Of a stretch of DNA of 64,000 bases, positions 1 through 59,969 are shown piece by piece. A model generated the notes under the pieces. That model had not been told where the DNA came from, ran no database searches, and was given only the letters and a program-made list of their open reading frames with translations. The DNA is from Geothrix sp. 21YS21S-2. Lineage in GTDB: Bacteria > Acidobacteriota > Holophagae > Holophagales > Holophagaceae. The position numbers were made by a program, and so were the translations under genes. The stretch lies in the NCBI RefSeq assembly GCF_030846775.1, contig NZ_CP132910.1, forward strand, positions 4,095,001 through 4,159,000. The letters are read 5' to 3'. The stretch's first letter is position 1. Every line of letters begins with the position of its first letter.

Positions 1-1855
1 TCTCGGTGGGGTTGCCCTGCTTGGTCACGGAGTTGGTGATGCCCTCGAGGACCTTGGAGTTGTAGCGGGCCCAGGCGGCGCTGACGAGCCAGTTGCCGTC
101 GCCGAGGATGTCGTACTTCGTGCCGAAACGGGGGGAGAAGCCGCTGGCGGAAGCCGTGGACTTGCCGGTCTCGTTCTCGGCCTTGAATTTGTCGAAGCGC
201 AGGCCGATGTTGAAGCTCAGGTGCTTGTTGACGGTCCACTTGTCGTTGACATAGAGGGCCTCGGAGAAGTTGTGGGCCTCGCCGTCGCCGCTGATCCATT
301 CCCAGACGTCGCGGGGGCGGGCTTCCCAGATTCCGGCGACCTGGCCGTTGAGGGAGGGCCGGGTGACGCCGAAGGTGAAGCCGGTGGGGGACTGCTCGTT
401 GCGGGCCTTGGAGATGCCCTTGTAGTAGTCGACGCCGACGTCGGTGGTGTGGCTGCCGGCGCCGTCCCAGAACATGCTGACCTTCGCGTTGAAGGTCTGG
501 TTGTTGCGGTTGTCGCCGCCGTCGTTCTGGTTGAAGATGCCGTTGTTCAGATAGCCGCCCGTGGCGGAGCTGTAGTTGTACATCGGGCTGCCACCGGCCA
601 CGTTGGCGCCGGCGGAGAGCTTCTGCTTCTTGCGGCCGACCTTCATCTCCGACGTGATGGTGTTGGACCAGATGGCGCGCCACTGGAGGTTCAGGAACTC
701 GGAGGTGCTCACCTGCGGAACCAGCGCCGTGGTCATGGCCGCGCTGTAGTTGCGGTTGACGTCGTCGATGCGGGCGTTGTTGAAGGAGGTGACCAGGGTG
801 TGGTTCTGGTTGACGGCCCAGGTCAACTTGATCTGGCGGCGGATTTCCTTGGTCTGGGTGATATAGGGGGCGTTGAAGCCCACGAGGCCCGTCTGGTCGT
901 TGTTGGAGATGACCGGGTTGGAGCCGACGCGGTTGCCGAGGTCAAAGGTGATGGTGCCGGCGCCGGTCTGGTTGGTGGAGAAGAAGCTGCCAGAGAACCA
1001 GAGCTTGTCCTTGATGATGAAGCCGGAGAGGGAGATCGTCTTCTCCTCGTTCATCGTGTTGGGGAAGGAGCCGCGGGTGTCCTTCGGATTGTAGGCGTTC
1101 CAGGCGGCGTCCTTCAGCTCCCAGCGCAGCTGGCCGGCGAACTCGTTGCCGCCGGAACGGGTGATGGCGTTCAGCACGCCGCCGTCCACGTCGCCGTATT
1201 CGGCGGAGATGGCGCCGGTGATGACCTGGATCTCTTCGATCGAGTCGTCGATCAGGCGGACGCCGCGGTTGTTGTAGGCGTTGTCGGAGATGTTCTGGCC
1301 GTCCAGCAGGTAGAGGTTGCCGGAGGTCATGGCGCCGCGGATCTGGACGCGGTTGCCGACGCCGGTGGTGACGCCGGGGGTCAGCAGGGCGACGCCTTCC
1401 ATCGTGCGGGCGTTGGGCAGGGCGTCGACGGCGTCCAGGGAGTAGTTGGAGGCGGTCTTGACGTCGGTGCGGTCAACGGCGGCGGCGGTTCCGACCACTT
1501 CCACGACCGCGTAGGCGGTCTTGGCCATGGTGAAACGGGGCTGGTAGGTCTGGTCGATGCCGATCTTCTCAGTGGTCTTGATGGTCTGGAAGCCGGTCTT
1601 CGAGATGGTGATGGTGTAGTTGCCGGGAGGCAGCAGGCGGGTGATGAACCGGCCCTTGTCGTCCGTCTGCAGGACGCGGGGGCCCTGGAGGCTGGTGGAA
1701 ACCAGGTTGACGGTGGCGCCGGCGACCGCAGCGCCGTTCTGGTCGACGAGGCTGCCGCTGATGCTGGACGTCTGCGTGCCCTGGGCGGCGAGGGTCACGG
1801 AACCCACGACGATCAGCGCGGCGATCCGGCCGAAGTTTTCGAGTCTACGATGCAT
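1..1855 (-). CDS. TonB-dependent receptor, Oar-like (3' end outside window)
   Basis: Outer-membrane beta-barrel receptor; only about the first 618 residues are visible because the gene runs off the left edge. A signal peptide (starts MHRRLENFGRIAALIVV) is followed by a carboxypeptidase-regulatory-like Ig fold at about residues 30-105 (GNYTITISKTGFQ), then a TonB plug at about 120-240 (QIRGAMTSGNLYLLDGQ, AEYGDVDGGVLNAITRSGGN), then aromatic- and Asn-rich barrel strands. This order is typical of Oar/OmpA-like TonB receptors of Acidobacteriota and Myxococcota, whose substrates (proteins, peptides or glycans) are mostly unknown. The start at 1855 is chosen because AGGAGG lies 6 nt upstream; an in-frame ATG at 1861 abuts the AGGAGG and is unsuitable. 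Confidence 0.9.
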   Translation of the reverse strand, partial: MHRRLENFGRIAALIVVGSVTLAAQGTQTSSISGSLVDQNGAAVAGATVNLVSTSLQGPRVLQTDDKGRFITRLLPPGNYTITISKTGFQTIKTTEKIGIDQTYQPRFTMAKTAYAVVEVVGTAAAVDRTDVKTASNYSLDAVDALPNARTMEGVALLTPGVTTGVGNRVQIRGAMTSGNLYLLDGQNISDNAYNNRGVRLIDDSIEEIQVITGAISAEYGDVDGGVLNAITRSGGNEFAGQLRWELKDAAWNAYNPKDTRGSFPNTMNEEKTISLSGFIIKDKLWFSGSFFSTNQTGAGTITFDLGNRVGSNPVISNNDQTGLVGFNAPYITQTKEIRRQIKLTWAVNQNHTLVTSFNNARIDDVNRNYSAAMTTALVPQVSTSEFLNLQWRAIWSNTITSEMKVGRKKQKLSAGANVAGGSPMYNYSSATGGYLNNGIFNQNDGGDNRNNQTFNAKVSMFWDGAGSHTTDVGVDYYKGISKARNEQSPTGFTFGVTRPSLNGQVAGIWEARPRDVWEWISGDGEAHNFSEALYVNDKWTVNKHLSFNIGLRFDKFKAENETGKSTASASGFSPRFGTKYDILGDGNWLVSAAWARYNSKVLEGITNSVTKQGNPTE

Positions 1856-1975
1856 GTGCATCCTCCTGTTTGGGGTTAGCGTTAGCGATAATTGGTTATA
1901 TCACTTCGCTTAGGGGTTAATTCCGGGGGTTCAAAGACATCAAGGCCTTTCCCCGGCCCATTATTGGAAAATATC

Positions 1976-51729: not shown

Positions 51730-52986
51730 ATGAATATCACTCGGTAACTGGATTCGGAATGGAAACCGGCTTTGGGGTGCACTGAGCCCTTCGCCGTTGC
51801 CTGGGCTGCTTCTCTGGCCGCCTCCCAGGGTTCCTGAGCGATCCGCAGTGTCCGCCTCAGGTGTGATGCGCGAACCTACAAGAATTGCTACGCGGTGGGG
51901 ATTCCCAACTCAAACCGGGCTACCGGGATTCTGTGGGCGGAGGCGCTCGGCGCCAACCTGCCGGATGGCAGCCTCGGGTTGAGCAGTTTCGAAGGCATCA
52001 CCGACGCGGCCATCGAGGCCTCCGGCGTCCTCCTGGGGAGCGGAAGCGTCAGTGTGGACATTGATTCCTCCCGGACCGGCCTGATGATCGAGGTGACGGT
52101 CGTCCGGGAACAGGGCACCGGCCGTGCGCTGCTCCTCCATGACCACGGCAATCTTGCGCGGCTGGAAAAGGATGGCGTCCTGGTGCGCGGGGAGGACGCC
52201 CTGCCGGAAGGGGCGAAGGGTGTTCCCATCCGGCAGCTGTTGGCCGAGCTACCCATCGAGAGCCTCATGGATCTGGCGAGGACCCTCTCCCGGGAAGACC
52301 GGGCAAAGCTCCAGCGTGGCTTTGCCATGAACATGAAGATCGCCAAGCACGGCTTGGGGATTCTTCCGGGTGGATTCGCTGGGCCCGGCCGTCCGGAAGC
52401 TCCGGTGGCCCTGTCCCACCTGGTCAGTGCCGGGGTGTTCGCGCGCATGTCCGGGGAATCCAACCCGGTGATGACCCTGGCCGGATCCGGCAACAATGGG
52501 ATCACCTTGTCGATCCCGGTTTTCGAAGGCGGCAGGCGGGCTGGCCATGCGGAAGAGCGGGTCGAGGAAGCCCTGGCTTTCGGCTGACTCATGGCCTCCG
52601 CGGCCACCTGGCACCTCGGGTCCCTCTCCGCCATCTGCGGGGCGGCGAACGCCGCGGGCATAGGAATCGCGTCAGCCTTCGTCTTCCTGGAGGGTGGCAG
52701 CCACGAGCAGGTGAGCCTTGCCGTCAACACCATGGTCGGCAACCTGGCGGGGATGATTTGCGATGGGGCCAAGATCGGTTGCGCCATGAAGACCCTGACC
52801 GGGGTGGAAGCCGCCTTCCGGGCGGCCAGCATGGCCCTGGCGGGCATGGGCATTCCTGCGACGGACGGCATCGTCGGGAAGGACGGAAGGGCTTCGCTCT
52901 CCAATCTGGGACGGCTGGCCCAACGGGGTATGGCCGGCGTGGACACGGAGATCCTGCGGATCATGCAGGACAAATTGCGACCGTAA
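51730..52986 (+). pseudogene. L-cysteine desulfidase family (CyuA/YhaM, UPF0597) gene with three in-frame stops
   Basis: One reading frame from ATG 51730 (AAGGGA upstream) to 52986 matches the whole L-cysteine desulfidase/serine dehydratase-alpha family: WKPALGCTEPFAVAWAASLA, YKNCYAVGIPNS, GSGNNGITLSIPVFEGG, SAICGAANAAG, GMICDGAKIGCAMK. The Cys residues of CTEP and MICDGA...C, which would hold the Fe-S cluster, are kept. The frame is cut by TAA 51745-51747, TGA 51835-51837 and TGA 52585-52587, with no frameshift. The product would have degraded cysteine to pyruvate, sulfide and ammonia. Probably inactive. Confidence 0.85.
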
Positions 52987-53123: not shown

Positions 53124-54188
53124 TCATTGACGGAGGGGCCACCTGGCCAGGAGGCAGGTCCCTCCCCCATCGCGGGGCGCAAGGAGGATCTGCCCCTTAT
53201 GCTTTTCCACGATGGTGGAAAAGGCGAGGGCGAGCCCTTGTCCGGAACCGCGGCCCACGGGCTTGGTGGTGAAGAAGGGCTCGAAGACCCGCTCCCGGAT
53301 TTCCTCTGGAATCCCCGTTCCATTGTCCGCCACGCGGAGTTCCACCTGGTCCCCCGTGAGGCGGAGGGAAAGTTCGATCCGCCCCCTGGCGAGCTTGCCC
53401 CGCTCGATCTGCTCGCCGATGGCATGGGCGGCGTTGATCACCAGGTTCATGACGACCTGCCCGATCTCGTCGCGCAGGCAGGCCACGGGCGGCAGGTCCG
53501 GGTCGATTTCCAGCTCCAGATCCGCGACGTGCTTCCATTCACTTTGGGAAACCGTGACGGCGGAACGGGCGATTGCCCCGAGATCCTCCAGTTCCATGAC
53601 GCCGCTTGAAGCGTGGGAGAAGGTTTTCATCGCCTTGACGATGCCGGCGATGCGGGAAAGTCCCTCGGAGCATTGGGCCAAGGCCAGGGGCGCCTGCTCC
53701 CGGACGAATTCGAGATCCGCTGCATCCCGCAAGGAATCGAAGTCGGAAAGCTGTTCTGCGTTGCTGGATGTCTCACGCATCTTTCCGACGAGGATCAAGG
53801 ATGCATCGATGAGAGCCAGGAGGGGCTCCAGCGTCGACCGGAGGAAGGTGATGTTGTCGGCGACGAACTGGGTGGGGGTGTTGATTTCATGGGCAATCCC
53901 CGCGGCGAGCTGGCCGATGGATTCCATCTTCTGCATCTGGAGCATTCGAACCTGGGTCTGCTTCAGTTCCGCGAGCGTCTTTTGCAGTTCCGCACGCTCC
54001 GCGGCCAGCTCCTGGGTTTTCCGCTCGACGACCTTCTCGAGGGTGAGGTTCTGTTCCAGAAAGTGGAGGGTTGAGCTTTCACGGGCTCGAATGTCGAGTT
54101 GCCGGCGTATGAGGACCTCGATGGTCTTGTCCCGGGCGGCCAGTTGGCGCCTCAGCTCCGCCAGGGTGTCCTGGTCTCCGCAACTCAT
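53124..54188 (-). CDS. Sensor histidine kinase (cytoplasmic)
   Basis: 354 aa, no TM segment. A long N-terminal coiled coil (residues about 5-90, ERAELQKTLAELKQTQVRML) leads to the HisKA box MESIGQLAAGIAHEINTPTQ with His100. HATPase motifs follow: VMNLVINAAHAIGEQI (N box), VADNGTGIPEEIRERVFEPF (G1/F) and GSGQGLALAFSTIVEKHKG (G2). Its ATG overlaps the stop of the FIST sensor gene, so the soluble kinase probably takes its signal from that sensor. Last gene of the leftward four-gene signalling operon. Confidence 0.93.
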   Translation of the reverse strand: MSCGDQDTLAELRRQLAARDKTIEVLIRRQLDIRARESSTLHFLEQNLTLEKVVERKTQELAAERAELQKTLAELKQTQVRMLQMQKMESIGQLAAGIAHEINTPTQFVADNITFLRSTLEPLLALIDASLILVGKMRETSSNAEQLSDFDSLRDAADLEFVREQAPLALAQCSEGLSRIAGIVKAMKTFSHASSGVMELEDLGAIARSAVTVSQSEWKHVADLELEIDPDLPPVACLRDEIGQVVMNLVINAAHAIGEQIERGKLARGRIELSLRLTGDQVELRVADNGTGIPEEIRERVFEPFFTTKPVGRGSGQGLALAFSTIVEKHKGQILLAPRDGGGTCLLARWPLRQ

Positions 54189-55306
54189 GCCGCACCGGGC
54201 CTTCCCAGGACGATGCCCGTAAGCGTCTGGTTCACATGGATGCCGTTGAACTGCTCTCCATAGGTGGAGAAGCCGAAGACCTGCCGGCTGGCCATCAACG
54301 CTCCCACGGCACCGTCGTTTCCGAGGTTCTCGAATTCCAGTCGCCGGAGGATGCAGTCGCAGGCCAGAACCGCGAGAGGGTCGCCAGCCTTCTGCCGCAC
54401 CTCTGCGAGGGTCCGGTCGAGCAGGGCGAAGGGATCGACGGATTCCCCGATACTGACCACCAGGCCTTCATCGATGGCGCAGTACAGGGCCAGGGACTGG
54501 TCCGGGAGCGCTCTGGCAATGGAGCGCACGTGGTGTTCCGTCCCGATGGACATCAGGAACGGATGTTGTGAGAAAACCTTCGCATTCAACTCCTCCAAAG
54601 GGAGGCCCAAGGCCCGGGCGTAGACGGCGGCGGCCGGCTCGCCATTGACCTCGAGGATGAGGCGGCGGTCAGCATCCGCCTCCGTAATGACAAGGTTCTG
54701 CCTGCCAGGAATGAAATGCTTCAGCATGAAGGGCACGACCGGGCCACGGGCCCGGAAGCTGGCCAGGACGGCCGCATCACTCAAGAACCGGCCATCGAAA
54801 TAGACGAAGGTCCGGGTAAAACCCAGATCGTCGCCCGCGGAACCACCGATTATCGGCGTATTCCCCAGGGCCAGATAGATGGCCGAAGTCACACGTTCCT
54901 CCATCATCGACAACCCGTCGATCACCAGGAAGCCGAAGGGATGCAGCCGCCCCGAGGGGGCCTCCTCCCGGATGGCAGCGGCGATGCCGACGACCTGATC
55001 CTGGAACCCGGCCAGAGGATGGATCAGGTGGGGCACCATGGACAGGTTCCCGCCGCGAAAGCCCGTGGCTGCCATTCCGCCTTTCTGGAAGCCGTGGGGC
55101 CCGACCTGCCCCGCGGAGGTGCAGCCGATGATCGGACATGCAAAGGACCGCTGCAGTTCCGCCGCGACCTGGTCCAGGTCATAACTCGAGGAACAGAAGA
55201 AGAAGAGGGCATCCAGACCCGCGTCTCCAACCTGGGACTTCAGGTCCGCAACCGCCACCCGGGGGTCGGGATCCTGGGTCATGCCGTGCCGCACCGAATC
55301 GTCCAT
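54185..55306 (-). CDS. FIST domain signal-sensing protein
   Basis: 373 aa with FIST-N (GLDALFFFCSSSYDLDQVAA, IIGCTSAGQVGPHGFQKGGM) and FIST-C (QHPFLMSIGTEHHVRSIARA, GVFGFSTYGEQ-like end). FIST proteins bind small ligands, and the NosP subgroup binds haem and senses NO with a partner kinase. Haem binding here is not provable by eye. GGAG lies 5 nt upstream of the ATG at 55306. It overlaps the kinase gene by 4 nt and follows two response-regulator genes. Confidence 0.9.
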   Translation of the reverse strand: MDDSVRHGMTQDPDPRVAVADLKSQVGDAGLDALFFFCSSSYDLDQVAAELQRSFACPIIGCTSAGQVGPHGFQKGGMAATGFRGGNLSMVPHLIHPLAGFQDQVVGIAAAIREEAPSGRLHPFGFLVIDGLSMMEERVTSAIYLALGNTPIIGGSAGDDLGFTRTFVYFDGRFLSDAAVLASFRARGPVVPFMLKHFIPGRQNLVITEADADRRLILEVNGEPAAAVYARALGLPLEELNAKVFSQHPFLMSIGTEHHVRSIARALPDQSLALYCAIDEGLVVSIGESVDPFALLDRTLAEVRQKAGDPLAVLACDCILRRLEFENLGNDGAVGALMASRQVFGFSTYGEQFNGIHVNQTLTGIVLGRPGAA

Positions 55307-55390
55307 CGAGGCTCCACCCTATGACATATCTATCGAACTCAACGACCAAGGCATTAAGGGAATTCCATCGGCGAATCACCCCTGGGACCC

Positions 55391-56341
55391 CTATTTCACG
55401 AAGGACTCCATGGTCACTGAGAGGGTGGCCAGGACGACGGGATCATATCGGCCGCGCTGCATTCGTAATTCCTCCAATGCAACATATTTGGACTTAACGC
55501 TTTGCTCGATCGCGTTGAAGTCCTGGAGTGCTCGCAGGACGCGGGCCCCCAGGGGAATCGCCTCGCCGCGGATCGAATCCTCGGGTATGCCCGTCCCATC
55601 GAGGTTCTTCCCCTGGTACCTGACGATCTGGGCGACGCCTTCCAGCTTCGGGATGGGCTGGAGCAGGTTGGCGGCGCGCTCGATGGCAGCGCTGAGCTGG
55701 GCCTTCCCGGCTGGGTCCTCAAGCTTTCTCCGGGCCCATTGCAGCCGCACCTCGGATGTCAGGGACACCAGCCAGAGGGGCGAATACAGTGCTGCGAGGG
55801 TGATCGACCAATCATCTGCCACCCCCATCGCCCTGGCCACGAGGGCAGCACGGTGGGCCAGGGTCTGCGCGGCCAGGTAGACGGCAGGGTCAAGGACTTC
55901 GAGGATTCCGGTCATCGCTTCGATGCTGCGGGTGAGCGTGACCTCGAGGAGGTCCCTCTCCCCGGCGATCAGGTGGTATTGCCGGATGCCGGCATCCACG
56001 ACCCGGCTGATTTCCTCCGTGTCACAGGGTTTTGAAAGGAACCTGAAGACCTGGCCACTGTTGATGGACTCCAGCAGTGTGACGGGACCGGGGTGTCCCG
56101 TGAACATGATGCGGATCGTGTCAGGGGCCAGGACCTGGGCCTTTTTCAGGAACTCGATCCCGTTCATGCCGGGCATCGCCATGTCCGCGACGACCACCGC
56201 ATACGGTCCGCTCGTTTCCATCGCCTTCAGGGCCTGCGCGCCGCTGGCGGCGAGCTCCAGATCGTAGCGTTTCTTGAAATTGCGATGGACCGATTCAAGC
56301 AGGCTTTCATCGTCGTCCACGAAAAGCACCTTTTCATTCAA
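55391..56341 (-). CDS. Response regulator with degenerate HD-GYP-type output
   Basis: 316 aa. Receiver domain (KVLFVDDDESLLESVHRNFK, phospho-acceptor Asp53, FRFLSKPCDTEEI), then an RpfG-like domain in which the metal-binding His-Asp is lost (AALYSPLWLVSLTSE instead of the LLHDIG pattern). A trace of the GYP region remains (GKNLDGTGIPEDSIRGEAIP, LGARVLRAL). Probably not a c-di-GMP phosphodiesterase. It starts at TTG 56341 with GGAGG 6 nt upstream, overlapping the upstream regulator stop by 8 nt. Close paralogue of the gene at 58818. Confidence 0.85.
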   Translation of the reverse strand: MNEKVLFVDDDESLLESVHRNFKKRYDLELAASGAQALKAMETSGPYAVVVADMAMPGMNGIEFLKKAQVLAPDTIRIMFTGHPGPVTLLESINSGQVFRFLSKPCDTEEISRVVDAGIRQYHLIAGERDLLEVTLTRSIEAMTGILEVLDPAVYLAAQTLAHRAALVARAMGVADDWSITLAALYSPLWLVSLTSEVRLQWARRKLEDPAGKAQLSAAIERAANLLQPIPKLEGVAQIVRYQGKNLDGTGIPEDSIRGEAIPLGARVLRALQDFNAIEQSVKSKYVALEELRMQRGRYDPVVLATLSVTMESFVK

Positions 56342-57548
56342 GGATCGCCTCCGGATTGAAAAAGGGGTCGGCCACGGCTTTCCATGCCTGCAACCGGTCG
56401 CCGGCAAGGGACGCAGGTTCCAGCGGCCCAAGCTTGCGATGAATATCGAATACCATCCGATCACCCTGGGCCATGGAAAGGAATTCCGCGCCCTGGATGA
56501 TACTCGTGGGATTTATCGTTTTTTCCGGGTCAAACCGGTCATGGTGGCGGCTAACGGCCTCGACCACGGCGTTGGGGAGCCCCCAAAGTCCCAGGAGGTA
56601 GCCTCCGACCTCTCCGTGGTGGATTCCCATGACCTGTGTTTCCGCTTCGGCAATCTCCAGGGGCCCCTCGGCGACCATCCGGTAAATTTGGTTGTAGTGT
56701 TCGGGCAAGGCAGAGATCAGCAGCAGCAGGCCCACATCATGGAGAAGGCCACTCGTGAAGCTGTCGGACCTCCCGGTCCTGTCCAGGCCTTCCAGGGCCG
56801 CGATCGCCTGGGAAGCCCTGGCCATGCCGAGGCTGTGGCTCCAAAGGTGGAGGCAGCGGAATTCGGGAGGACTTCCCTTCATTTGCTGGAACACACCGTG
56901 GAGCAGGGAAATCGCCTTCAGGGTCTCCACGCCCAGGAAGGAAACGGCCTCCGTCGGGCTTGAAACCCGTTGACGGAGACCGAAATAGGAAGAGTTGACC
57001 AACTTGAGGATGTTGGCGGTAAGCCCCGGATCCCGTTGAACGACAGCTCCGAGGTCCGCAACGGTCGTCGTCTCGGACGTGAGCAGCTTCTGGATTTCGA
57101 GATAGGTGCCGGGAATCACGGGGAGATGGGAAATGCCTCCGAGGATCTTGCGTATGGCATGGCCTTTCAGGTTCCTTCCCACCAGGCTCGCCCCGCGGAT
57201 CACCGACCGCAGCAGGTCCGGATCGCAGGGTTTCGTGAGGAACTGGTGGGCCGCGCCCTCCGCCTGCAGGATGAGATCCATTTCAGCATGTCCGGACAAT
57301 ACGAGCCGGATGGTTTCCGGGTAGAGGTCTCGAACTCGGTTAAGGAATTCCGCTCCATTCATACCGGGCATCCGGAGATCGGTCACGACCACATCGAAAG
57401 GGGTTGCCGCAAGGGTAACCAGGCCTTCCGCGCCGCTGGCCTCGAAGCTCATCTCCCATTCCCCGCGCATGTCGCGCAGGAGTCGCCTGAGCCCCTGGAG
57501 CACAAATGGCTCATCGTCTACAAACAAGACTCGAATTTTTTCGTCCAT
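56334..57548 (-). CDS. Response regulator with HDOD output domain
   Basis: 404 aa. The receiver (VLFVDDEPFVLQGLRRLLRD, Asp57, HQFLTKPCDPDLL) is followed by an HDOD domain from about residue 135 (ISHLPVIPGTYLEIQKLLTS, RDPGLTANILKLVNSSYFGL, SGLLHDVGLLLL, GIHHGEVGGYLLGLWGLP). It keeps the HD dipeptide. HDOD proteins usually act as signal-transduction scaffolds. First gene of the leftward operon (HDOD-RR, HD-GYP-like RR, FIST, kinase); GGAAGG precedes the ATG. Divergent from a second, similar pair. Confidence 0.92.
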   Translation of the reverse strand: MDEKIRVLFVDDEPFVLQGLRRLLRDMRGEWEMSFEASGAEGLVTLAATPFDVVVTDLRMPGMNGAEFLNRVRDLYPETIRLVLSGHAEMDLILQAEGAAHQFLTKPCDPDLLRSVIRGASLVGRNLKGHAIRKILGGISHLPVIPGTYLEIQKLLTSETTTVADLGAVVQRDPGLTANILKLVNSSYFGLRQRVSSPTEAVSFLGVETLKAISLLHGVFQQMKGSPPEFRCLHLWSHSLGMARASQAIAALEGLDRTGRSDSFTSGLLHDVGLLLLISALPEHYNQIYRMVAEGPLEIAEAETQVMGIHHGEVGGYLLGLWGLPNAVVEAVSRHHDRFDPEKTINPTSIIQGAEFLSMAQGDRMVFDIHRKLGPLEPASLAGDRLQAWKAVADPFFNPEAILE

Positions 57549-57710
57549 GGTCCTTCCAGGCTCTTCCTTATGTATCGATCAAATTCAAGTGAAGCTGAAT
57601 CTCATCCAATACTTGATCTGGTCGATACGGTAAGCAGGTCATGGGCAGGCGCCGCCACTACTGTTCATGTTCCCATTTGTGGCCAGTGTCTGACTTGAGG
57701 GAGGATCCGA

Positions 57711-58814
57711 GTGTCGCGGCCCAGAATTCTCCTCGTCGATGACCAGAAAATGATCCTGCTCGGCCTGGAACGCATGCTTCGGCGGATGCGCAATGCTTGG
57801 GATGTGGTCCTCGCGGGGTCGGGAAGGGAGGCCCAGGGGTGCATGGAGGATCAGGCCTTCGATGTCCTCCTCAGTGACCTGAACATGCCGGGTTTCGGCG
57901 GAGCCGAATTGCTGGAATGGAGCCGGGAAAGGCATCCCGGCACCATCCGGATCGTGCTTTCGGGTCATCAGAACAAGCCCATGATCCTGGCTTCGACGCG
58001 CACCGCCCACCGTTTCCTGACCAAACCGTGCGAGCCGGATGTTCTCGTGGCGACCCTCTCCGAAACCTTGGAGGCTTGCCTGCTCCCCGCCGGAAAGGGA
58101 GGTGTCCGCCAGGCGGTGGTGGGGATGGGCAGCCTCCCGGTGGGCCCTGGTGCCGCCAGGGGCGTTGCGGAGCAGCTCCAGGACCCCTCCGGGACGGTTC
58201 CTTGTCTCCAGGACCATTTTCTGGAAGATGCCGGCCTGGCTTCGATGGTGCTTCACTTTGTCAATTCAGCCTTTTTTGGCGTCCCGAGGCCGATCCTCAA
58301 TCCCTGGGAGGCGTTCCAGCTTCTTGATCGGGATAGCTGGCCGGCGATCAGGGTTGATCCGGTGCCGTCCGAACTGGAATCCCGGCTCCAGCCCCTCCGG
58401 GAAAAGCACCTGGCCCAGGCCCGGCACGCGCTCTCCATCACCCGGTCCGAGGGCGCACCGGTCGAAGTCCAGAACCTGGCCTACATCGGCGGGCTCCTGG
58501 CCGTTGCCGGCCCCATGATCCTCGCCATCTCGTTCCCTGAACGGTTCGAGGAGGCGATGGCTCAGCCGCAGGCTTTGGGGGTCGACCTCCAACAGCTTGC
58601 CTACCACTATTTCAGACTCAGGGGCCTTCCCGCCCCCCTTCTGGAAATCGTGGGCAACCCTCGGGAACCGGGGAGGTACCGCCAGCCACCCTCTCTTGCC
58701 TTGGCGGCCGTCCATGTCGCCTCTGGAAAACCTGATGAATCGTTTCTTTCTGGTACGCCGTTCCTCGGCCGGGTTCCCACATGGCAACGCCTCCACGTTC
58801 CTGCCCAAGGATGA
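57711..58814 (+). CDS. Response regulator with degenerate HDOD-like output
   Basis: 367 aa, starting at GTG 57711 with GGAGG 6 nt upstream. The receiver (ILLVDDQKMILLGLERMLRR, Asp56, HRFLTKPCEPDVL) is clearly related to the regulator at 56334. The C-terminal half keeps parts of HDOD (LASMVLHFVNSAFFGVP, AYHYFRLRGLPAPLLEIVG) but lacks the HD dipeptide (YIGGLLAVAGPM). Likely a non-catalytic scaffold. It is 3 nt before the next regulator, on the right side of a 162-bp divergent promoter region. Confidence 0.85.
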   Translation: MSRPRILLVDDQKMILLGLERMLRRMRNAWDVVLAGSGREAQGCMEDQAFDVLLSDLNMPGFGGAELLEWSRERHPGTIRIVLSGHQNKPMILASTRTAHRFLTKPCEPDVLVATLSETLEACLLPAGKGGVRQAVVGMGSLPVGPGAARGVAEQLQDPSGTVPCLQDHFLEDAGLASMVLHFVNSAFFGVPRPILNPWEAFQLLDRDSWPAIRVDPVPSELESRLQPLREKHLAQARHALSITRSEGAPVEVQNLAYIGGLLAVAGPMILAISFPERFEEAMAQPQALGVDLQQLAYHYFRLRGLPAPLLEIVGNPREPGRYRQPPSLALAAVHVASGKPDESFLSGTPFLGRVPTWQRLHVPAQG

Positions 58815-58817
58815 TTC

Positions 58818-59969
58818 ATGAGCCCCAAGGTCCTGCTGGTTGACGACGACTCCAATATCCTGTCCGCGTACACCCGCCTGCTTCGGGGGCGGTTCGAATT
58901 GGAAACCGCACAGGGGGGCGAGGAGGCCCTGACGCGAATCAAGGCCGCGGGCCCGTACGCAGTCATTCTTTCCGACATGCGAATGCCCGCCATGGATGGC
59001 ATTCAGTTCCTGGCCGAAGCGAGGATCCGGACACCGGATTCGGTCCGGATCATGCTCACCGGGAACGCCGACCAAACCACGGCGATCGAGGCCGTCAACC
59101 GGGGGAACATTTTCCGCTTCCTGACGAAGCCTTGTGAACGGGGACTGCTCGTCAGCTCCATCGAAGCAGGAATCAAGCAGAACCAGCTCATCATCGCAGA
59201 GAGGGAACTGGTTGAAGGAACCGTCAAGGGCTGTATCGACCTCCTGGTGGAACTGCTTTCCATCGCCGATCCCGTTGCCTTCCAGCAATCCCAGCGGCTG
59301 GGCCTGCTGGCCCAGAAGGTGGCGCGGGTCATGGAAATGGAAGCCGATTGGGTGGTGGTGGTCGCGTCACTCCTCGCGCCGATCGGCGTCCTTACCCTAC
59401 CCGGGTCCGTCATGATAAAGGTGCGGAAGGGTGATCAGATCACGCCGCGGGAGCAGGATGCGGTTGTTCGCCTGCCCGAAATCAGTTCCAACCTCCTCAA
59501 CCACATTCCACGGATGGCGGAGGTCGCCCAGGTCATCCTCTTCAAGAACAAGAATTTCAACGGCTCCGGTTTCCCGGCCATTCCCGCGCACCGGGAGGAG
59601 ATCCCCCTGGGGGCACGGATCCTCAGGGTGGTTTCGGATTTCCTGGGCGCCATGGAGAAGCGTTCCAATGCTCGCCATGTCCTCGAAGAAATGCGTCAGA
59701 ACCAGGTCTTCTATGACCCAAGGGTGATCAACGCCCTCGGCCTGGCCCTGGCCGTTCCGGATGAAGTGATCAATGATGGGGCCCCCTCCTCCTACCACGC
59801 CACCCACAAGACGGTCCAAGTGGGCGAAATCCTGGTGGAGGGTGTCTATACCCGGGAAGGGCAGCTGCTCTATCCTCCGAAAACGGTTGTCGGCCAGAGC
59901 CACCGGGAACGCCTGAAGAATTATGCCGCGCTGGTGGGCCTCAAGGAGCCGTTCCTCGTTCAGGCCTGA
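58818..59969 (+). CDS. Response regulator with degenerate HD-GYP-type output
   Basis: 383 aa. Receiver (KVLLVDDDSNILSAYTRLLR, Asp53, FRFLTKPCERGLL), then an RpfG-like helical domain where LLHDIG is replaced by LLAPIGVLTLPGS and the HHExxDGxGYP block by FKNKNFNGSGFP. The metal ligands needed for c-di-GMP hydrolysis are therefore missing. Paralogue of 55391-56341, with a C-terminal extension of ~60 residues. Transcribed together with the upstream regulator (3-nt gap). Confidence 0.87.
   Translation: MSPKVLLVDDDSNILSAYTRLLRGRFELETAQGGEEALTRIKAAGPYAVILSDMRMPAMDGIQFLAEARIRTPDSVRIMLTGNADQTTAIEAVNRGNIFRFLTKPCERGLLVSSIEAGIKQNQLIIAERELVEGTVKGCIDLLVELLSIADPVAFQQSQRLGLLAQKVARVMEMEADWVVVVASLLAPIGVLTLPGSVMIKVRKGDQITPREQDAVVRLPEISSNLLNHIPRMAEVAQVILFKNKNFNGSGFPAIPAHREEIPLGARILRVVSDFLGAMEKRSNARHVLEEMRQNQVFYDPRVINALGLALAVPDEVINDGAPSSYHATHKTVQVGEILVEGVYTREGQLLYPPKTVVGQSHRERLKNYAALVGLKEPFLVQA

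Follow-up and report, generated by a model that had tools for sequence, protein, structure and literature searches.

A six-gene locus in the 64,000-nucleotide stretch of DNA analysed here (the window), which comes from the soil-type Holophagaceae bacterium Geothrix sp. 21YS21S-2, is best read, with a probability of about 70%, as a NosP-type NO-sensing two-component system with a branched and mainly non-catalytic output, which would have been assembled by rearrangement and not by inverted duplication. On the reverse strand we identified nosK, encoding a soluble histidine kinase with a HATPase_c domain (53124..54188), a nosP homologue with FIST N and FIST_C domains, encoding a candidate haem/NO sensor (54185..55306), and the genes for two response regulators, RR2, a receiver (REC) with a degenerate HD-GYP domain (HD_5) of lineage A (55391..56341), and RR1, a receiver with an HDOD domain (56334..57548; HDOD E 1.6e-54). 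Beyond a divergent intergenic region of exactly 162 bp (57549..57710), two further regulator genes lie on the forward strand, encoding RR3, a receiver with a degenerate HDOD domain (57711..58814), and RR4, a receiver with a degenerate HD-GYP domain (HD_5) of lineage B (58818..59969); the assignments of RR2 and RR4 draw on Pfam, tree and alignment. Open reading frame checks and Pfam searches recovered all six genes, with the strands, domain types and intervening gap that the original prediction had given. The nosP and nosK genes overlap by 4 nt, those of RR1 and RR2 overlap by 8 nt and form one operon, and the start of RR2 was refined to a TTG codon at 56341 with a GGAGG-like site upstream.

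The FIST protein aligned with the NosP model NF041558 over residues 9-368 of 373 and model positions 2-368 of 368 (360.6 bits, E 8.9e-108), a score below the curated cut-off of 450, as were those of the two highest-scoring Acidobacteriota hits of family f6 to the same model (404 and 430 bits). A genome-wide search found this to be the single NosP match in the 5.25-Mb genome, and nosP adjoins the gene of a histidine kinase that its product would regulate, as expected of a NosP system. A PDB sequence search returned no solved relative of the protein. The near-full-length match backs its predicted role, and the FIST protein is probably an NO/haem sensor.

NosK consists of an N-terminal coiled-coil-like segment followed by the H-box GIAHEINTPTQ, which carries a phosphatase-type HExxT motif (HEINT), and a HATPase_c domain (E 5e-21). 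No sensory domain was recognised by Pfam, HATPase_c being the only match above cut-off alongside a weak HisKA match, which bears out the view of NosK as a kinase that lacks a sensor domain. Six genomes of the genus yielded 18 kinase matches to the NosK subfamily at E<1e-40, all of which adjoin HDOD or HD-GYP regulator genes by coordinates, and because of this co-location it is plausible that a single kinase serves several regulators. The H-box region is also near-identical between NosK and the PAS kinases of a paralogous gene cluster described below. A different context for the nosP-nosK pair was observed in a genome of another genus (G024, L052 4519-11956), where it lies between two chemoreceptor genes with a hybrid kinase adjoining.

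The phospho-acceptor Asp is conserved in each of the four receivers, as is the Lys of the KPC motif. The shared receiver ends FLTKPCxPD and FRFLxKPC were likewise present, as QFLTKPCDPD and RFLTKPCEPD, and as FRFLSKPC and FRFLTKPC, respectively. Within the locus, regulators of like type across the divide are the most alike, with identities far beyond chance of 37% over 312 aa for RR2 and RR4 and 32% over 361 aa for RR1 and RR3. The HD pair is replaced by SP in RR2, which is also without the C-terminal ~70 aa present in its relatives, and by AP in RR4; both align with the HG of a Burkholderia pyrrocinia NosR-like regulator that carries HG and GTP. Hydrolysis of c-di-GMP by RR2 and RR4 is unlikely because the catalytic HD pair is kept in none of the 31 aligned HD-GYP-type regulators, these two included. 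The HDOD domain of RR1 retains an HD pair, within GLLHDVG, and that of RR3 has lost it, contains deletions and matches Pfam at only 44 bits. Judged by these residues, at least three of the four regulators (RR2, RR4 and RR3) are predicted pseudo-enzymes that lack catalytic output residues. AlphaFold models of RR4 and RR3 were built from shallow alignments (pLDDT 76 and 71.5, respectively), and the Foldseek and VIA lists obtained with them were taken up by receiver domains, and were uninformative for the output domains. The NosR family NF053512 was the best NCBIfam match of all four regulators, each below its cut-off of 400 (RR4 at 231 bits, RR2 at 173.5 bits), and RR4 is 77% identical to the gene that occupies the NosR position next to nosP in another genome of the genus (G002).

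Three genomes of the genus possess NosP (the window's own, G002 and G005), and their loci show three different layouts. In G002, genes for RR4, nosP and nosK share one orientation, the RR2 gene has the opposite one, and there is no HDOD gene; in G005, a histidine kinase gene, an HDOD gene, two HD-GYP genes, nosP and nosK are all co-directional. The four-regulator, two-operon arrangement is thus, on present gene orders, a variant seen in one of the three. Also identified, elsewhere in the window's own genome (G000:C1:4747292-4754478, L138), was a paralogous cluster in which homologues of RR4 (RR4', 66% identity) and RR3 (RR3', 51%) are encoded in the same direction as a PAS kinase, and a homologue of RR1 (RR1', 60%) in the opposite one. 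Other Holophagaceae genera usually show the co-directional order PAS kinase(s)-HDOD-HDGYP_A-HDGYP_B without NosP, and cassettes of this kind, which lack NosP and combine PAS kinase(s) with HDOD and degenerate HD-GYP genes, were found at L138, L139, L146-L153 and L157. Matches to an RR4-type query occurred in 38 of 77 sampled family genomes and to an RR1-type query in 40 of 77, both being single-query matches and not counts of complete cassettes.

From the likeness of the regulators across the divide, the original prediction had proposed an inverted duplication of a two-gene unit, which would mean that an HDOD/HD-GYP gene pair was recently doubled at this site. Regulator types do match on the two sides, at the identities given above, and the intergenic TCGATAC sites described below are mirrored. 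However, phylogenetic reconstruction placed RR2 in lineage A and RR4 in lineage B, old sister lineages of HD-GYP regulators that occur in tandem in other Holophagaceae genera, grouped RR1 with RR1' of the paralogous cluster, and recovered RR3 as sister to RR3' with support of 100/100. The receivers are consequently not mutual closest relatives, and approximately unbiased (AU) tests reject trees that make sisters of RR2 and RR4 (p 1.25e-6) or of RR1 and RR3 (p 9.5e-102). Furthermore, an RR1'/kinase/RR3'-RR4' arrangement is present elsewhere in the same genome, and conservation of the layout in related genomes, which the prediction had led one to look for, failed, the G002 and G005 NosP loci being different. 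Trees, AU tests and layouts together rule out the duplication, to which we assign a very small probability.

By these trees and gene orders, RR1-RR4 are instead old family members that rearrangement would have united, without a fresh mirror-image duplication. The intergenic region 57549-57710 shows a partial alignment with a G002 intergenic region in reverse complement only (44, where 200 shuffles reached 30 at most), and this one short alignment, along with the gene orders, suggests that the regulator block, which was rearranged relative to nosP-nosK in this genome, was inverted. A search for repeats at the block edges turned up only short matches at background level.

Third-position GC of the six genes (0.72-0.79) is the lowest of any run of six in the window, for which the mean is 0.892 (s.d. 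0.084) across 57 called genes of at least 100 aa with the six included, and 0.908 (s.d. 0.081) across 44 genes of at least 150 aa without them. Values are 0.92-0.95 for the genes of the G002 NosP locus and 0.91-0.97 for the paralogous cluster; some window neighbours of the six are also low (0.77-0.86). This pattern fits an import of the entire block into the lineage, and drift could also produce it. By far the lowest value in the window, 0.53, belongs to an open reading frame at 2-1879 (+).

Two copies of TCGATAC, in opposite orientations, lie in the divergent region 57549-57710, and one copy lies in each of two gaps of the G002 NosP locus (L051 8897-8963 and 10116-10279). By a count made post hoc, the sequence occurs in no other intergenic gap of the ten loci scanned; it is possibly a shared promoter or operator. 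Scans for sigma-70 promoters and terminators performed no better than on shuffled sequences.

Adjoining nosK is a CyuA/UPF0597-like gene (51895-52986, +), named from its sequence and not from a family search, which contains one in-frame TGA (52585-52587) at a position occupied by Cys in six relatives; the present copy is the only one of the Holophagaceae matches with a stop. Selenocysteine at this codon was considered and rejected: since the five tRNA-Sec matches of this genome proved to be four tRNA-Ser and one tRNA-Tyr (ARAGORN), and the fold 3' of the TGA was no better than in shuffles, the codon more probably reflects a nonsense mutation or an error of sequencing.

In the mechanism that we propose, NosP, with haem/NO binding expected from its family, would shift the balance between kinase and phosphatase activities of NosK. 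NosK would in turn exchange phosphoryl groups, in one step, with the NosR-like RR2 and RR4 and with the receiver-HDOD proteins RR1 and RR3. The outputs may then work through protein contact, most likely by tuning c-di-GMP enzymes encoded elsewhere, with effects on surface or motility behaviour; possible targets in the genome comprise 22 GGDEF and 6 EAL domains. By analogy with the action of Shewanella HnoD on HnoB, action through contact is likelier than hydrolysis for RR2 and RR4. The anatomy of the locus, with one kinase, four single-receiver regulators and no HPt, suggests one-step branched phosphotransfer. Of the branched phosphorelay put forward originally, the branching from a single kinase remains plausible, and the term phosphorelay finds no support. 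As to its history, NosP-NosK would have been joined to the old Holophagaceae cassette PAS kinase(s)-HDOD-dHDGYP_A-dHDGYP_B, in which d denotes degenerate, and the regulator block rearranged in this genome. The best reading of these loci would make NosP/NosK one interchangeable input to a non-catalytic regulator cassette. A more tentative extension, which we hold to be possible but doubtful, is that a single NO-responsive kinase governs all four regulators, of which three or more are pseudo-enzymes, and that the locus is one form of a Holophagaceae-wide HDOD and pseudo-HD-GYP cassette that exchanges its input kinases but keeps its non-catalytic outputs together; the regulators would then act as a joint scaffold and not as four separate outputs.

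Two caveats to this mechanism each correspond to a rival reading. Receivers of the HDOD type are unlike those of the HD-GYP type in sequence, and RR1' and RR3' adjoin a PAS kinase, such that RR1 and RR3 could have another kinase. NosK might accordingly partner RR2 and RR4 only, while RR1 and RR3 answer functionally to the paralogous cluster's PAS kinases and are passengers or cross-talk nodes here. This would fit G002, which retains RR2, RR4, NosP and NosK at a locus where HDOD regulators are, from its gene content, apparently dispensable, as well as the closeness of RR1 and RR3 to the paralogous copies and the absence of HDOD from published nosRPK operons (PMC12570481). Conversely, RR1 shares an operon with RR2, the HDOD gene of G005 lies in one gene run with nosP-nosK, and the near-identical H-box regions of NosK and the PAS kinases argue against so strict a division; we regard the narrower partnership as unlikely, though a serious contender. 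The other caveat is that NosP and NosR models were both matched below their curated cut-offs. The FIST protein might then sense a signal other than NO, such as haem level, redox state or an amino acid, and the locus would not be an NO system. FIST proteins are diverse, and V. cholerae CdpA has been described as haem-responsive (PMC8846402). The full-length NosP-type alignment, together with the FIST_C signature and the kinase partner that described NosP systems also have, nevertheless speaks for NO, and sensing of another signal appears rather improbable.

The original prediction knew of no described system with this layout, and our search of the open-access literature on Holophagaceae, or on HDOD with NosP, found no paper describing it; the claim was nonetheless too strong, given close precedents in Burkholderia nosRPK and Shewanella HnoK/HnoB-C-D. 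In Burkholderia pseudomallei, nosR-nosP-nosK corresponds to BPSS1648-1647-1646; Burkholderia NosK has no sensory domain, its control by NosP is NO-dependent, it phosphorylates NosR, and the HD-GYP motif of NosR is altered to HG-GTP (PMC12570481). The present locus shares with it the FIST sensor, the sensorless kinase, a receiver-HD-GYP regulator without the HD pair, and the gene order regulator-sensor-kinase. The core module is not new, because its combination of FIST protein, sensorless kinase and receiver with degenerate HD-GYP is that of Burkholderia nosRPK. The present locus differs in having two NosR-type and two HDOD regulators, in its two divergent operons and in its phylum. The H-NOX/HnoK-HnoB/HnoC/HnoD network of Shewanella oneidensis, in which an NO-linked kinase serves several regulators (PMC6335343, PMC8846402) and HnoD acts on HnoB through contact (PMC6335343), resembles the locus in branching from one kinase and in the use of a degenerate HD-GYP domain, there found in one regulator. 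Its sensor is H-NOX, whereas the sensor gene here encodes a FIST protein, and among its outputs are an active EAL phosphodiesterase and a transcription factor, both missing from the present locus; Pfam identified no EAL phosphodiesterase regulator and no H-NOX (HNOB) sensor among the genes of the locus, where outputs are HDOD and degenerate HD-GYP domains. Legionella NosP-NahK-NarR, as cited in PMC8846402, similarly joins NosP and a kinase to a c-di-GMP-related regulator, there the single regulator NarR with GGDEF-EAL domains. Active HD-GYP phosphodiesterases possess the HD metal-binding pair that is absent from RR2 and RR4.

Within the family, the Holophagaceae PAS kinase-HDOD-dHDGYP_A-dHDGYP_B cassette has a homologous kinase domain and regulators of the same types, but takes its input from PAS kinases instead of NosP/NosK and is co-directional in most loci. 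This cassette, which combines HDOD with pseudo-HD-GYP regulators across the family, is of more interest than the core. The locus would extend the NosP/NosK/NosR logic, described in Proteobacteria, to Acidobacteriota and tie it to that cassette, and should its outputs work together through contact, it would offer a tractable case for the role of non-catalytic HD-GYP and HDOD receivers.
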